This document shows, piece after piece, positions 2,017-48,485 of a DNA stretch of 64,000 nt. The notes below the pieces were generated by a model. The model searched no databases. It had not been told where the DNA came from and was given only the letters and a program-made list of their open reading frames with translations. Made by a program: the position numbers and the translations under genes. Origin of the DNA: Pectobacterium carotovorum (GTDB lineage: Bacteria; Pseudomonadota; Gammaproteobacteria; Enterobacterales; Enterobacteriaceae); NCBI RefSeq assembly GCF_900129615.1, contig NZ_FQWI01000005.1, positions 186,001 to 250,000 on the forward strand, given 5' to 3'. Positions within the stretch are counted from its first letter, which is position 1. Each line of letters starts with the position of its first letter.

Positions 2017-3849
2017 TTGAATAGCGAACTTCTCTGGGTTTTATCCCTGTTGCTGATCGCCATTGTGTTGTTTACCACCAATAAATTACGCATGGACGTC
2101 GTCGCGCTGTTGGTCATCATCGCGTTTGTACTGAGCGGTACACTGACGCTATCTGAAGCGTTGGTAGGGTTCAGCGATCCTAATGTGATATTGATTGCAG
2201 CCCTGTTTGTGATTGGTGAGGGGTTGGTTCGTACCGGTGTTGCTTATCAGGTCGGTGATTGGTTGGTCCGCGTGGCGGGCAGCAGTGAGATGAAGATGCT
2301 GATCTTACTGATGGTCACCGTTGCGCTGCTGGGGGCTTTCATGAGCTCCACTGGCGTTGTCGCGATTTTTATTCCCGTTGTGCTCAGCGTTTCCGCCCGG
2401 ATGAAAATTTCCCCCGGAAGGCTGATGATGCCGCTGAGTTTTGCCGGATTGATTAGCGGCATGATGACGTTGGTCGCGACGCCGCCGAATATGGTGGTGA
2501 GCAGTGAGCTGATGCGTGAAGGTGTTGCGGGCTTTGGTTTTTTCAGCGTGACGCCGATAGGGATGGTGGTATTGCTGCTGGGTGTGGCGTATATGATGGT
2601 GGCGCGTTACTGGCTTGGCGATGCCGAGACGGCAGCAGCAAAAGAGATGTGGAAGAGAAGAACGTTTCGCGATCTGATTCGTGATTACCGACTGACGGGC
2701 AGGGCGCGTCGGCTGGCGATTCGACCAGGATCGCCTTTTATCGGCCACCGTCTTGATGATTTACGCTTGCGTCAGCGCTTTGGTGCGAACGTGGTCGGGA
2801 TTGAGCGCTGGCGTAAATTTCGTCGTGTGATGATCAGCGTGGCGGGCAATACCGAACTTCGCCTGAATGATGTCTTACTGATCGACATGTCGGCGTCTGA
2901 GGTGGACTTACGCGAATTTTGCACCGCACAGCGGCTTGAACCGATGGTGCTGCGCGGTGAGTATTTCTCCGAGCAGGCGCGTGATGTGGGAATGGCGGAA
3001 GTCTCGTTGATTCCCGATTCTGAACTGTTGGGGAAAACGCTGTATGACGTCGGGTTCCGAAGCCGCTACGGCCTGAGTGTCGTGGGGATTCGCCGGTCAG
3101 GTGAAGCGATGGAAGGTATCCTGGCTGATGAGCCGCTCCAGCTCGGTGACATTCTGCTGGTGATGGGCGACTGGCGCATGATTCGACAACTGCACACACA
3201 GAAAAACGACTTCCTTTTACTTAATCTCCCTGCTGAGGTGGATGACGTGGCGCCCGCGGTAAGTCAGGCGCCACACGCGCTGTTTTGTCTGGCGCTGATG
3301 GTAGCGATGATGCTGACGGATGAAATACCGAATGCGGTTGCCGCACTGATCGCCTGTTTGCTGATGGGGAAATTCCGCTGTATCGACATGGAAAGCGCCT
3401 ACCGGGCGATCCACTGGCCGAGTATTATTCTTATCGTCGGAATGATGCCGTTTGCGCTGGCGTTGCAGCAAACGGGCGGTGTGGCGCTGATCGTTAAAGG
3501 GCTGATGGATGTTGCCGGGAACGCCGGGCCGCATGTGATGCTGGTGTGCTTGTTCGTGTTGTGTGCCGTGATCGGTCTGTTTATTTCCAACACGGCGACG
3601 GCGGTGCTGATGGCACCGATTGCGATTGCCGCAGCGAAACAGATGGGCGTGTCGCCTTATCCTTTTGCGATGATCATCGCGATTGCAGCCTCTGCCGCCT
3701 TTATGACCCCAGTGTCATCACCGGTGAATACGCTGGTACTGGGGCCGGGCGGTTATAAATTCGGGGACTTTGTACGCATTGGCGTCCCCTTTACCGTTCT
3801 GGTGATGGTGGTCAGCGTGGTGATGGTACCGTGGCTGTATCCGTTCTGA
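2017..3849 (+). CDS. yfbS: SLC13/DASS-type transporter YfbS with two TrkA-C domains
   Basis: A 610-residue membrane transporter of the divalent anion:sodium symporter superfamily, the same length as E. coli YfbS. The N-terminal half has about five hydrophobic segments, including the [13 protein letters not shown] loop and the [15 protein letters not shown] motif. Two cytoplasmic RCK/TrkA-C-like domains follow (roughly residues 200-290 and 300-390). A second membrane half contains the repeated [15 protein letters not shown] and [15 protein letters not shown] motifs. The substrate is unknown; related proteins carry sulfate or dicarboxylates. The start is unusual: TTG 2017 has AGGGG seven bases upstream and aligns with the E. 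coli N terminus. ATG 1990 is an alternative but has no ribosome site. Confidence 0.9.
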
Positions 3850-3878
3850 CGGTGCTTTTCCGTTATAGCGGACGCTCG

Positions 3879-4478
3879 TTATAACGGAGAATCCTGACTG
3901 ATTTCGTCAAGCGACAGGCTAAAGCTGGGAACGAACACCGTCATGAAATAGTCCATTTCCGGGCTGTGGCGCAGCTGCAAGGTTTTTTCCAGTCGTGCTT
4001 TGGCAAGCGTGAATTCCGCATTGCCTGCGGATAATTCTTCCAGACATTTCAGGTAGGCGCACAGGGCATCTGCCTGTTTAACGATGAGGCGTTCTTCTTC
4101 GCTGGTGTAGTGGTCATCCAGCAGCATGCGATAATCCTGCTGCAACTCTTCCGGCAACATTTCAACCAGTTTCTGCTGTGCAATCTTCTCTATCTTCTTG
4201 TACTCATGTGCGATCTGCGCGTTGTAGTACTTGATCGGCGTCGGCATGTCACCGGTCAGCACCTCGCTGGCATCATGGTACATCGCCAGTAGTGCGATGC
4301 GTTCAGCGTTCAGGTTACCCTCGAATTTGCGGTTTTTGATTACCGCCAGCGCGTGGGCGACGAAGGCGACCTGAAGACTGTGCTCGGAGACATTTTCCGT
4401 GCGCACGTTGCGCATCAGTGGCCAACGGCTGATCAGTTTTAGACGGGATAAATGGGCGAAAAAGTGGCTCTGATTCAT
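3879..4478 (-). CDS. yfbR: 5'-deoxynucleotidase YfbR (HD domain)
   Basis: A 199-residue HD-domain phosphohydrolase. The metal-binding residues are visible as His33, His68-Asp69 (MYHDASE) and Asp137 ([10 protein letters not shown]), the same positions as in E. coli YfbR. That enzyme dephosphorylates deoxyribonucleoside 5'-monophosphates and takes part in dUMP and thymidine metabolism. The gene runs convergent to yfbS, and its last codons overlap an inverted repeat at 3860-3887 that may separate the two transcripts. The start is ATG 4478. Confidence 0.95.
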
Positions 4479-13020: not shown

Positions 13021-13066
13021 AGAATTTTTGATTAGCGCTCGTGGTAACACGGGCCATTATGGAAGC

Positions 13067-44786: not shown

Positions 44787-45005
44787 GCGCTCCTGAGGCT
44801 ATAAAACAGTGTTAGTAACGATGCAGAGCGTACCTTCTGAGATGGCGAGGGTTTAGCAACAGAGTTTAAAAATTGAAGTGAAACGTGTACGAAATCGGCA
44901 GACATCGTGCGGACAACATGTCCTTGCTTCCCGCCAAATGTGAGCTGATGCAAATGGCGCGCTAATTGCATAGTCCGGACTGTGGTTTTTTCAGGAGAGA
45001 CAGCA

Positions 45006-46295
45006 ATGGTGGCGGAGCCTTCAACGACAATTCGATTTTTACTTGCCTCGCGCCAGTGTGAGCTGAACAGCCTGCGCTACCTGCTGCAAAGCGGTGAGTT
45101 GGTGGGCAAAATCAGTCAACTCGTTCATCTATTGCAGCGTGAACGGGGAACGGCCAACCTGTTTCTTTGCTCCGATGGTCGACTGTTCGCCGACGAACTG
45201 GCGCTACGTGAGAAAGACGTGCAGGTGGCGCAGACGCATTTGATGACGCATCTGGCCGGATTGGAAAAAATGACGGCGGAGTTGCCACAGGCGAGCCGTT
45301 TATTCAGCCGTGTTGCCAGCGTGGTTTATGCGCTGAGCCTGCTGCCCGCGCTGCGTCAGCAGATTCGCCAGCGTTTGCTGCCTCAGCCGCAGGCGATGAC
45401 GTTTTTCAACGACATTGTCCGCAACCTGCTGGCGCTGGTTTTTGAGGTCTCAGATACGGCGGCCGATCCGGGCATTTCCCGCGCGCTGATTGCCATGTTC
45501 AGCTTTATGCAGGGGAAAGAGCTGGCGGGGCAGGAGCGAGCTATCGGTGCGGCGGCCTATGCGGCGGGCTGCGTCGATGAGGAAACCCGGCAAAAGCTGC
45601 TGGATTTGATTGAACGGCAGGAGCGCTGTTTCGATACCTTTCTGAGTTTTAGCGATGAAGAAAACCAGCAGCGCTGGCGCGCTATCGCGGTAGACAGCGA
45701 ATTTGAGCGCCTGCGCCGCATTGTGTGCACCCGCAGCCCGATAGAAAAGCTGCCGGAAGCCGATAGCCTGCACTGGTTTTCGATTGCCACGCGGCGCATC
45801 GATGAAATGAAGCAGATGGAAGATGAGTTGGAGCAGACGCTGATGCAGCGCTGCCGTACCCGTATTGCGGCTGCTGAGAAAGCATGCAGCGATCAGCGCG
45901 CGGATCTCGAAGAACTGATGGCGCAGCAGGAGAAGGACGAGCCCGGTTATTCGATATTTATCGCTGGCCATGATGTAGAAGGGCAAAGTGCGCAGCCCGG
46001 CTGGCTACATAGCGATGGTGTCAGCCCACAGTTGGGGCGCTCGCTGCTGTCGCTGGTGCAGCAACAATCGCGGCGCTTACAGGCACAGGATCATGAATTG
46101 GCTGCGCTGCGAGCCACGTTGAATGAAAGAAAGCAGATCGATCGTGCGAAGGGTTTGCTGATGCAGCACCGTGGATTAAGCGAAGAAGAGGCCTACAAAA
46201 CCCTGCGCCGCATGGCGATGAGTCAGAATAAAAAGCTGATTGACATTGCGACGGCGATGCTCGCGGTGGCCGATGTATTTGGTGATACCCCTTAA
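45006..46295 (+). CDS. nasR: Nitrate/nitrite-responsive antiterminator NasR
   Basis: A 429-residue regulator with an N-terminal NIT nitrate-sensing domain (about 30-280, all helical, with the ISQLVHLLQRERGTANLFL segment) and a C-terminal ANTAR RNA-binding domain (about 360-425: ALRATLNERKQIDRAKGLLMQHRGLSEEEAYKTLRRMA). In Klebsiella, NasR binds nitrate or nitrite and then an RNA hairpin in the nasF leader, preventing termination. The layout here (nasR directly upstream of nasF, same strand) and the leader terminator at 47131 fit that mechanism. ATG 45006 has AGGAGA nine bases upstream; the frame opens earlier at 44982. Confidence 0.93.
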   Translation: MVAEPSTTIRFLLASRQCELNSLRYLLQSGELVGKISQLVHLLQRERGTANLFLCSDGRLFADELALREKDVQVAQTHLMTHLAGLEKMTAELPQASRLFSRVASVVYALSLLPALRQQIRQRLLPQPQAMTFFNDIVRNLLALVFEVSDTAADPGISRALIAMFSFMQGKELAGQERAIGAAAYAAGCVDEETRQKLLDLIERQERCFDTFLSFSDEENQQRWRAIAVDSEFERLRRIVCTRSPIEKLPEADSLHWFSIATRRIDEMKQMEDELEQTLMQRCRTRIAAAEKACSDQRADLEELMAQQEKDEPGYSIFIAGHDVEGQSAQPGWLHSDGVSPQLGRSLLSLVQQQSRRLQAQDHELAALRATLNERKQIDRAKGLLMQHRGLSEEEAYKTLRRMAMSQNKKLIDIATAMLAVADVFGDTP

Positions 46296-46497
46296 GAGGT
46301 ATATGCACATGAACTGTGCGTGTTCTGCTTGCTTGCGGTGCAAGGCATCGTCCCGTGAGGAGGAAATCTCAGAGTCAATGGCAGTATGAAGTGGTTTCGT
46401 GCGTAAAAATATCGTCATTTCTATGCTACGTCGTAGCACACGCACGACACGGGGCGCTCAGTCGCCGCCGCCCCGTGACCCGAGGCTTTTTCGCGGG

Positions 46498-46633
46498 AAA
46501 TTACGCCGCTGCGCGGTTCCTTCGGAAAATCAGTCGCCTGACGGACCGTGGCTGACGCGTTCCCGACGCGGCAGCCACTTTCGCAGCGTCCATGCTGCTC
46601 ATCCTGGAGACTGATTTGTCCTCAGCGTAATTT
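46498..46633 (-). repeat. 136-bp structured element, copy A
   Basis: A 136-base segment bounded by perfect nine-base inverted repeats (AAATTACGC and GCGTAATTT). A second internal stem pairs AAATCAGTC (46527-46535) with GACTGATTT (46609-46617). Two small hairpins occupy the centre: TGACGCGTTC/GACGCGGCA-type and GCAGC..GCTGC. It is an inverted copy of the element at 46733-46868, sharing the core TGACGCGTTCCCGACGCGGCA. Similarity continues outside the inner boundaries, including a flanking hairpin CACGGGGCG..CGCCCCGTG at 46448-46477. It lies in the nasR-nasF gap and encodes no credible protein. Confidence 0.8.
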
Positions 46634-46732
46634 ACGCGACAGAAAAGACAAACCACTATTACCCTCTTTCTGTCGTGGTCATAAATCATAAAATATCACT
46701 ATTTATTAATGTCTTACTTTCGCATGGCGTAA

Positions 46733-46868
46733 AAATTATGCAGCGGCGGACATGACCGCCGAGTGAGCGGCATGGATGCCGCGAAAGTCAGTGCCGCGTC
46801 GGGAACGCGTCACTGGCGGCTCGATTAGCGGTCATGTCCACCGATGGCACCGCGTAGCGGCATAATTT
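46733..46868 (+). repeat. 136-bp structured element, copy B (inverted)
   Basis: Exactly the same length as copy A and in opposite orientation. Its end repeats are AAATTATGC and GCATAATTT, so the C-G pair of copy A is a T-A pair here. The internal stem is GGACATGACCGC (46748-46759) with GCGGTCATGTCC (46828-46839), 12 perfect pairs, unlike copy A in sequence but at the same place. A central hairpin GCGGCAT-GG-ATGCCGC is also perfect. The outer flanking hairpin is CGCAGGGC..GCCCTGCG (46886-46915). Preserved pairing with changed sequence indicates selection for structure. Confidence 0.8.
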
Positions 46869-47040
46869 AGCCAGAAGCCAGGGTTCGCAGGGCTGCGGCG
46901 CTTGAGCGCCCTGCGTCGGGCGCGTGTACGGTATTGCATATCATGGTGGTGGTATGGCGCACGAAACTGTCTCTGAGTCTGTATAGAAATGTGACTAAGA
47001 GACGGCTCCTGCGAAGTGGAACGCTCAAAAGTGTGATAGC

Positions 47041-47056
47041 TGGCACAAACCTTGCT
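47041..47056 (+). promoter_or_regulatory. Sigma-54 promoter of the nas operon
   Basis: TGGCACAAACCTTGCT matches the sigma-54 consensus TGGCAC-N5-TTGCT exactly in its -24 GG and -12 GC elements (GG 47042-47043, GC 47054-47055, ten bases between). Transcription would start near 47067 and give a leader of about 160 bases before nasF. Sigma-54 control implies NtrC activation under nitrogen limitation, as for Klebsiella nasF. A half-site-like CATGGTGGT occurs near 46942, but a complete NtrC site could not be defined. Confidence 0.85.
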
Positions 47057-47130
47057 TTAACTCATTAGCAACAACCAAACATTCATAATGCGTTTCGGGC
47101 CAACGGCGGTGCGGAAGGTGTTAATCGGAC

Positions 47131-47188
47131 AACGGCGTCCATAAGCGTGCAGATTCTGCATGGGCTTGTGGACGCCGTTTTTGTTTTT
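47131..47188 (+). terminator. Leader terminator (attenuator) before nasF
   Basis: AACGGCGTCCATAAGC (47131-47146) pairs with GCTTGTGGACGCCGTT (47164-47179), 16 pairs with one wobble, enclosing a small inner hairpin TGCAG-ATT-CTGCA. It is followed by a T tract (TTTTTGTTTTT). It lies between the sigma-54 promoter and nasF, so it would block the operon unless read through: the expected target of NasR. Just upstream, ATCGGA (47124-47129) could form the A1/G4 hexaloop of an ANTAR hairpin whose right arm overlaps the terminator stem. Confidence 0.88.
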
Positions 47189-47225
47189 ACCGCCTGAAAA
47201 GGTGTTTTGCGCAAGGGTGTCGTTG

Positions 47226-48485
47226 ATGAGTGATTCCAAAACCAAAAGCATGACCGTCTCTCGCCGCCAGTTTCTGTTGGGGAGTGCTGCACTGGGAGGC
47301 AGCCTGATGCTGCCGGGGTTGATGAATAGCGCCTGGGCTGCCGGTTCCGACGCACCGGAGAAAAAGGAAATTCGGGTTGGGTTTATCCCGTTGACGGACT
47401 GCGCCTCGGTCGTGATGGCGGCAGTGAAAGGCTTCGATAAGAAATACGGCATCACCATTGTTCCCAGCAAAGAAGCCAGTTGGGCCGCTGTGCGCGACAA
47501 ACTGGTATCGGGTGAACTGGACGCCGCACACATTCTGTACGGGCAGCTGTACGGTCTGCAAATGGGGCTGTCTGGATCGCAGAGCAACATGGCTGCACTG
47601 ATGACGCTCAACCAGAACGGACAAGGCATCACGCTGGCGAACCAGCTGCGTGCAGCCAACGTCACGGATCTCGCCGCGCTGCAAAAGTATATCGCAGCTA
47701 GCCCTGCGGGCACTTATACCTTCGCGCAAACCTTCCCAACCGGCACGCACGCCATGTGGCTCTATTACTGGCTGGCCTCCGCCGGCATTCATCCGCTGAA
47801 CGACGTGCGCACCGTGGTGGTGCCGCCGCCGCAGATGGTGATGAACATGAAGATTGGCAACATGGTTGGCTATTGCGTCGGCGAACCGTGGAACCAGCGT
47901 GCCATCAGCGAAAACATCGGCTTTACTGCCGCCGCCTCGCAAGACATTTGGCCGGATCACCCGGAAAAAGTTCTGGGCACCCGCGCTGACTGGGTAAACG
48001 CCAACCCGAATAGCGCCCGCGCGCTGACCGCCGCGATCCTCGATGCCTCACGCTGGATTGATGCCTCTGATGACAACCGCCGCGAAACAGCAGGCGTCGT
48101 TGCCGGACGAGCGTACATCAATGCCAAAGAAGAAACCATCGTCGGACGCATGCTGGGCCAGTACGAGAACGGGCTGGGGAAAAGCTGGAAAGACGAACAC
48201 GCGATGCGTTTCTACCACGACGGTTCCGTGAACTACCCGTACCTGTCCGACGGCATGTGGTTCCTCACCCAGCACAAACGCTGGGGCTTGCTCACTGAAG
48301 AGCCGGATTATCTGGCTGTCGCGAAGCAGGTTAACCGTATTGATATCTATAAGCAGGCGGCCGATGCCGTGGGGAATGTGCCATTGCCCGGTAGCGACAT
48401 GCGCAGCAGCGTGCTCATCGATGGCCGTCGCTGGGATGGTAGCGATCCAGCGGGTTATGCCAACAGTTTTAGCGTGAAGAAATAA
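47226..48485 (+). CDS. nasF: Nitrate ABC transporter substrate-binding protein NasF
   Basis: A 419-residue NrtA/NasF-type periplasmic nitrate-binding protein. The N terminus carries a twin-arginine signal (SRRQFLLGSAALGGSLMLPG, cleavage after about AWA), so export by Tat is expected. The mature part has the nitrate-binding family motifs IRVGFIPLTDCA, GTHAMWLYYWLASAGI and GNMVGYCVGEPWN. ATG 47226 has AAGGG eight bases upstream; the frame runs back into the leader terminator at 47160, so an earlier start is unlikely. First gene of the nas operon. Confidence 0.93.
   Translation: MSDSKTKSMTVSRRQFLLGSAALGGSLMLPGLMNSAWAAGSDAPEKKEIRVGFIPLTDCASVVMAAVKGFDKKYGITIVPSKEASWAAVRDKLVSGELDAAHILYGQLYGLQMGLSGSQSNMAALMTLNQNGQGITLANQLRAANVTDLAALQKYIAASPAGTYTFAQTFPTGTHAMWLYYWLASAGIHPLNDVRTVVVPPPQMVMNMKIGNMVGYCVGEPWNQRAISENIGFTAAASQDIWPDHPEKVLGTRADWVNANPNSARALTAAILDASRWIDASDDNRRETAGVVAGRAYINAKEETIVGRMLGQYENGLGKSWKDEHAMRFYHDGSVNYPYLSDGMWFLTQHKRWGLLTEEPDYLAVAKQVNRIDIYKQAADAVGNVPLPGSDMRSSVLIDGRRWDGSDPAGYANSFSVKK

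Follow-up and report, generated by a model that had tools for sequence, protein, structure and literature searches.

A hairpin-rich, probably mobile DNA repeat of Pectobacterium with covarying stems and invariant GGA loops

Between a nasR-like and a nasF-like gene of Pectobacterium carotovorum lie two inverted elements that differ in their stems and still keep every arm paired. This raises the question of whether such compensatory changes reflect a structured RNA or a palindromic DNA that moves. The locus is part of the 64,000-nucleotide stretch analysed here (the window, in genome G000) and is flanked by genes for a NIT and ANTAR domain protein (nasR-like, 44982-46295) and an NMT1-like protein that weakly matches a Tat signal (nasF-like, 47226-48485). 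The original prediction, made from the letters of the window, described an isolated pair of 136-bp units with an outer flanking hairpin, and took their covariation as a sign that a branched structure, of DNA or of RNA, is under selection.

Results

Both copies and the arms named for them are present where they had been predicted, and they are two copies of one non-coding repeat on opposite strands. The unit, however, is larger than the 136 bp first assigned to it. Its conserved core of ~196 bp spans 46438-46634 in copy A (unit orientation plus; nhmmer model 1-195, E 4e-47) and 46731-46925 in copy B (unit orientation minus; nhmmer model 1-196, E 4e-59), and the similarity extends to TTTCGTGCG, which lies in the conserved 5′ part of the unit, at 46395-46403 (A, plus strand) and 46958-46966 (B, minus strand). 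The A/B similarity covers the outer hairpin, which therefore belongs to the unit rather than to its flank; when it is counted in, A and B can be aligned along their whole length of ~200 bp. An inverted-repeat search found an inner pair, 46553-46601 and 46764-46812 (49 nt, 88%), and an outer pair, 46437-46488 and 46875-46926 (52 nt, 77%). A covariance model built from 51 copies (R1) matches copy B at 168.5 bits (C14:232723-232876, that is, window 46723-46876).

The complete unit consists of the core and the part with TTTCGTGCG, 200 bp or more in total. An exact TTTCGTGCG stands upstream of the core in 109 of 115 copies (orthologues included), and its TCG and GCG parts pair with invariant CGC and CGA as helix 1. 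There follow a variable hairpin (helix 2), a closing stem (helices 3 and 4) with a small hairpin (helix 5), and then two large hairpins, hairpin 2 (helix 6) and hairpin 1 (helix 7); in some copies, GCGCACGAAAC is present on the opposite side. In copy A the large hairpins are read on the minus strand, hairpin 2 at 46548-46578 (loop GGA, the complement of TCC at 46561-46563) and hairpin 1 at 46583-46598 (loop AUGGAC, with GGA the complement of 46589-46591). Copy B has them on the plus strand, hairpin 1 (GCGGC-AUGGAU-GCCGC) at 46767-46782 with GGA at 46774-46776, and hairpin 2 at 46789-46815 with loop GGA at 46802-46804. By eye, copy B also has a terminal hairpin formed by GTCTCTTAGTC and GACTCAGAGAC (46969-47003, read on the minus strand), and in other copies this stem varies with pairing kept, again judged by eye without a count.

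Long forms, 11 of 124 merged copies, have the TTCCC loop of hairpin 2 replaced by a multi-hairpin module of ~75 nt. Orthologous copies differ in its presence (at sites 5 and 6 of the comparison below, and in nas copy A of genome G016), indicating that the module was gained or lost in place. A protein-coding origin of the repeat was rejected, because copies differ by single-base indels and one of 79 profile hits overlaps a large ORF (at least 130 aa).

We considered whether the pair could be chance, or an artefact of assembly at a local inverted duplication. In two relatives the pair is indeed fused (G005, L053 1900-2350) or broken by Ns (G013, L054 1900-2400), perhaps because of assembly trouble at the inverted repeat, a hairpin deletion also being possible. 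The pair is, however, matched whole and end to end in G002, G003 and G004, whose assemblies have one or two contigs, and tens of copies occur elsewhere, so that this explanation is refuted. G000, G003 and G004 carry the pair intact and in the same orientation.

The pair was also not isolated, as had been assumed; the genome holds tens of further copies. With copy A as query, blastn returned 28 matches in its own genome, including A itself and B (weakest E 3.8e-5), a set far above chance. A query of both copies matched all 25 genomes of the genus that were searched and none of 34 from outside the genus (blastn, at most 10 candidates scored per genome). R1, with 120 candidates scored per genome and counts that are lower bounds, found at least 14-43 copies per genome in all 25 Pectobacterium genomes and, for the genome that holds the window, at least 32. 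Of 159 genomes sampled from the family (Enterobacteriaceae), at least 40 matched R1, 2 within the genus and 38 of 157 elsewhere; these too are lower bounds, part of the candidates having been scored. Five genomes outside the genus gave best E-values of 1e-38 to 1e-44 and the other 33 gave 1e-24 to 5e-6; in the latter the matches mostly cover the full model where listed, often with several copies. A scan of named genomes for an exact 21-base core returned 59 stretches. Those with a profile match (56) come from Pectobacterium, Brenneria, Candidatus Symbiopectobacterium and an assembly labelled Serratia marcescens, and those without one (3) from Chloroflexi, Mycobacteriaceae and Halorubrum. Carriage as plasmid or phage cargo was rejected: the window pair has no blastn match in the plasmid or phage collection, and the related loci L226 and L228 are unmatched in plasmids and phages, respectively. 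Among the matches listed from titles and abstract openings of the open-access literature, we found no description of this family in Pectobacterium.

Differences between genomes at orthologous sites were sought in stretches of 351-400 kb around nas in five genomes (372 kb in G000); other copies in these stretches have no orthologous flank for comparison. The copy at C14:157164 of G000 is missing at the orthologous site of all 4 genomes compared (G003, G004, G005 and G013), and the copy at 185159 of G004 is likewise absent in 4 of 4. The site of the latter copy is empty in G003 and holds a YPAL/RU-2-like repeat in G000. One genome-specific copy examined closely replaces an intergenic stretch and is not a clean insertion, and the comparison of species yielded no clean target duplication. 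Judged by eye, and without a control count, sites 1, 2 and 5 show dyad symmetry in their empty alleles.

Orientation differs as well. At site 5, G000 and G005 have the copy on the minus strand and G004 has it on the plus strand; the G000 and G004 copies are 96.1% identical, versus 88.7% for the best other copy, which shows one copy inverted in place between species. At two further sites, G003 and G004 carry different paralogues (83%) that point in opposite directions, and at site 6 orientation is kept. The reading as a mobile palindromic repeat family is thus supported by many copies, by presence in all 25 genomes of the genus, and by differences of presence and orientation at orthologous sites. 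As to neighbouring ORFs, 45 of the 79 profile hits are in convergent and 2 in divergent contexts, while the two tandem orientations hold 15 and 17 with no preference between them (two long copies are counted twice, orthologues are kept in, and ORFs were called crudely).

Two side observations concern the surroundings of copies. In L102 (1864-3230) an insertion that includes an IS110-family transposase (Pfam domains Transposase_20 and DEDD_Tnp_IS110) splits a copy close to its hairpin 1 loop. Near another copy (L006 2192-2373), C4 antisense RNA scores above its gathering score, and isrK and c4-a1b1 match below theirs.

The enlarged alignment allowed the covariation to be measured. The pair set itself came from RNAalifold, run on this alignment with the opposite strand read. 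Across 51 non-redundant short-form copies, pairing holds in 98.3% of 2295 cells, versus 89.0% in shuffles; sliding the partner by 1-3 columns leaves at most 45.9% of cells paired. Both sides are changed in 208 cells, versus 45.5 ± 5.3 in shuffles, and such double changes are present in 24 of 45 pairs. The number of further pair types (47) is not above that in shuffles (44.2). The covariation claimed earlier is therefore real. Further copies exist in related genomes and the larger alignment keeps the pairing, the two points on which the original prediction had staked itself.

The nature of the changes is a different matter. Structural RNAs tolerate G-U pairs on the functional strand. Over 39 pairs of the repeat, 1924 of 1989 cells are Watson-Crick, with 26 G-T (17 of them in two pairs), 17 A-C and 22 other; the 23 variable pairs hold 205 cells with a non-majority Watson-Crick pair, 17 with G-T and 12 with A-C. 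A small control of 15 distinct tRNA genes from the same loci had 23 G-U and 0 A-C among 332 pairs. We had sought a G-U asymmetry that would name the transcribed strand and found none, neither strand showing much. Covariation that is nearly all Watson-Crick, and in which neither strand has an excess of G-U, fits DNA-level recognition of the hairpins, or templated correction between arms, better than selection on RNA, and we infer that pairing is kept in one of these ways. The covariation stood, and the selection on a branched structure that had been read from it is supported only in part.

An alternative is that the family is a dispersed structured RNA whose copies are kept since the two GGA-loop hairpins of their transcripts bind or titrate RsmA. 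We regard this as unlikely. GGA is invariant in both main loops (51 of 51 aligned copies). In alignment A3, in which three rows represent one E. coli site, 20 rows are left once two partial ones are set aside; by eye, 19 of these show GGA in hairpin 1 and all 20 show it in hairpin 2. RNA made by read-through of one strand would present two hairpins of the CsrA/RsmA type with GGA in their loops, at most suggestive of CsrA/RsmA binding by the repeat RNA. At relaxed thresholds, A and B match the Rfam family TwoAYGGAY (RF01731), which shares clan CL00106 with CsrB, at 46514-46630 on the minus strand (37.0 bits) and at 46734-46853 on the plus strand (35.3 bits), below the gathering cutoff of 43; in both cases, as in all 5 relaxed matches to repeat copies, the match falls on the GGA-loop strand. 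A relative in another genus (L228 1096-1177) passes the TwoAYGGAY cutoff at 47.6 bits and has an R1 match there too. TwoAYGGAY is proposed as CsrA-binding from motif matches (PMC4333381) and listed as probably RNA (PMC2864571), and E. coli RrB, a transcript with two GGA loops from between rRNA terminators, is described as binding CsrA in vitro (PMC8144298).

Several results count against the RNA explanation. Rfam at gathering score gave no match to the A/B pair; TwoAYGGAY matches 3 of 19 further repeat loci, at 31-33 bits, and leaves 16 of 19 unmatched at E up to 10; and A and B are not among the matches listed in a genome-wide TwoAYGGAY search (52 of 111 candidates scored). The window repeat and TwoAYGGAY share two adjacent GGA-loop hairpins inside a closing stem, and differ in that the window repeat scores below the cutoff, has GGGA and not AYGGAY as its hairpin 2 loop, and carries extra arms. 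In addition, G-U pairs are few with no strand excess, tandem orientation is unbiased, and a search of 46250-47250 for sigma-70-like promoters, where chance alone would give 0.6, found none. The balance therefore favours a mobile DNA hairpin repeat over a gene-like RNA. Identity of the repeat with the rrnB inter-terminator sRNA RrB was rejected separately, as R1 finds nothing in L278. Elsewhere in the window, nuoG RNA (RF01748) scores above its gathering score at 13022-13065.

Among described mobile repeats, YPAL/RU-2 (the Yersinia palindromic sequence) is the nearest. It is a mobile, non-coding intergenic repeat of ~168 bp with internal inverted repeats, which inserts in or beside dyad symmetries (PMC2229807) with target duplications of variable length (3-26 bp), and the RU-2 sequence printed in PMC2759123 shows, by eye, two hairpins with GGA loops. 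YPAL/RU-2 has also been reported in Erwinia carotovora; the portion of PMC2267715 consulted does not mention Erwinia. The window repeat resembles YPAL/RU-2 in layout and perhaps in target preference, but is longer and has extra stems and TTTCGTGCG. With blastn and nhmmer, RU-2 matches A and B no better than chance, and membership of YPAL by sequence was therefore rejected. It does match elsewhere on C14 of G000, at 97552-97715 (L139 17552-17715) and 177423-177550 (L143 17423-17550), the latter being the site at which G004 has a copy of the window family. R1 does not detect this YPAL-like copy. Given that RU-2 does not link to A and B and that R1 misses the YPAL-like copy, the window repeat forms a new family of the same kind, and is neither YPAL nor TwoAYGGAY.

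Other repeats are more distant. ERIC (RU-1) has site-specific internal insertions. This palindromic enterobacterial intergenic repeat, described as mobile (PMC2229807), differs in length (127 bp) and sequence from the window repeat, judging without alignment from a Salmonella copy printed in PMC2759123. REP elements with their resident Y1 transposase (RAYT) differ in that this enzyme is absent from the window genome; its domain, PF01797, occurs in 8 of 25 genomes of the genus. In E. coli K-12 MG1655, R1 has a full-length match between lysO and aqpZ (63.2 bits, E 3.8e-16), a site with no annotated feature; this repeat may be among the catalogued E. coli repeats (RSA). DNA similar to L234, a relative in another genus, occurs in 5374 of 5426 E. 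coli genomes, at 1-5 places per genome, none covering 80% of the query.

The ends of the repeat, CTG[AT]CTCTTA...TAAGAGACAG, resemble Tn5 ends, and a Brenneria copy (L108, near 3600-4030) has an exact 9-bp direct repeat outside matching Tn5-like ends. The family might, then, be an ordinary DNA-transposon MITE moved by an IS50/Tn5-like transposase. We consider this very unlikely, and the L108 duplication a lead only: a fixed 9-bp test, which took the best pairing of loosely matched ends, found an exact duplication in 1 of 46 copies with candidate ends. The Tn5-type transposase domain (PF02281) occurs in 0 of 25 genomes of the genus, 0 of 14 control genomes and 2 of 119 genomes of the family, and of six such transposase loci fetched, the three viewed had no repeat-like end at fewer than 6 of 19 mismatches. 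For the two domains sought, Tn5-type and Y1, no mobilizing enzyme or autonomous partner of the repeat was found.

Discussion

The family is multi-copy and non-coding, lies mostly in intergenic DNA beside gene ends, occupies polymorphic sites, includes one copy inverted in place between species and carries an optional module of ~75 nt. We think it likely that A and B represent an intergenic DNA repeat, rich in hairpins, mobile but non-autonomous, which is moved in trans and whose pairing matters at the level of DNA. A putative enzyme would recognize the folded or palindromic DNA and insert it beside terminators, as described for YPAL; the arms may be kept matched by the same DNA-level recognition or by templated correction. 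The repeat would in this way have spread to about 30 places in a Pectobacterium genome, with relatives in other genera of Enterobacteriaceae. A point against a DNA repeat is that non-stem motifs, including the GGA loops, are conserved together with their strand, which a purely palindromic role would not require.

A broader scheme would take account of those loops. The window family, TwoAYGGAY, YPAL and the lysO-aqpZ repeat could be branches of one ancient, family-wide mobile DNA repeat with two obligatory CsrA/RsmA-type GGA hairpins, and TwoAYGGAY would then be selfish DNA and not a class of cis-regulatory RNA. We hold this to be possible but doubtful. If GGA hairpins are indeed built into the element, each insertion beside a gene end would add a potential RsmA-binding site to the read-through RNA. 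The findings also make it possible to test directly whether mobile palindromes are tied to the Csr/Rsm network.

The DNA repeat described here belongs to a known kind of element, of which it is a new and unusually clear example. A palindromic repeat that is abundant in Pectobacterium now has a family, approximate boundaries and relatives. Its near-pure Watson-Crick covariation, inversion in place, exchangeable loop module and invariant GGA loops are surprising. That strong covariation can look unlike RNA selection calls for caution in the discovery of structured RNAs, perhaps also for the TwoAYGGAY entry.

Some minor observations concern copies in other genera. By eye, short tandem units with CGAAAC or CGGAACC lie downstream of the repeat in L226, L230 and L234, and GACCTT-like words upstream of it in L228, L230 and L233. 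The copies in L221 (genome G070, with 17 matches) and L085 (the assembly labelled Serratia marcescens 1001295B_180824_A7) appear by eye to be the same repeat copy, and the species label of the latter assembly may be worth checking.
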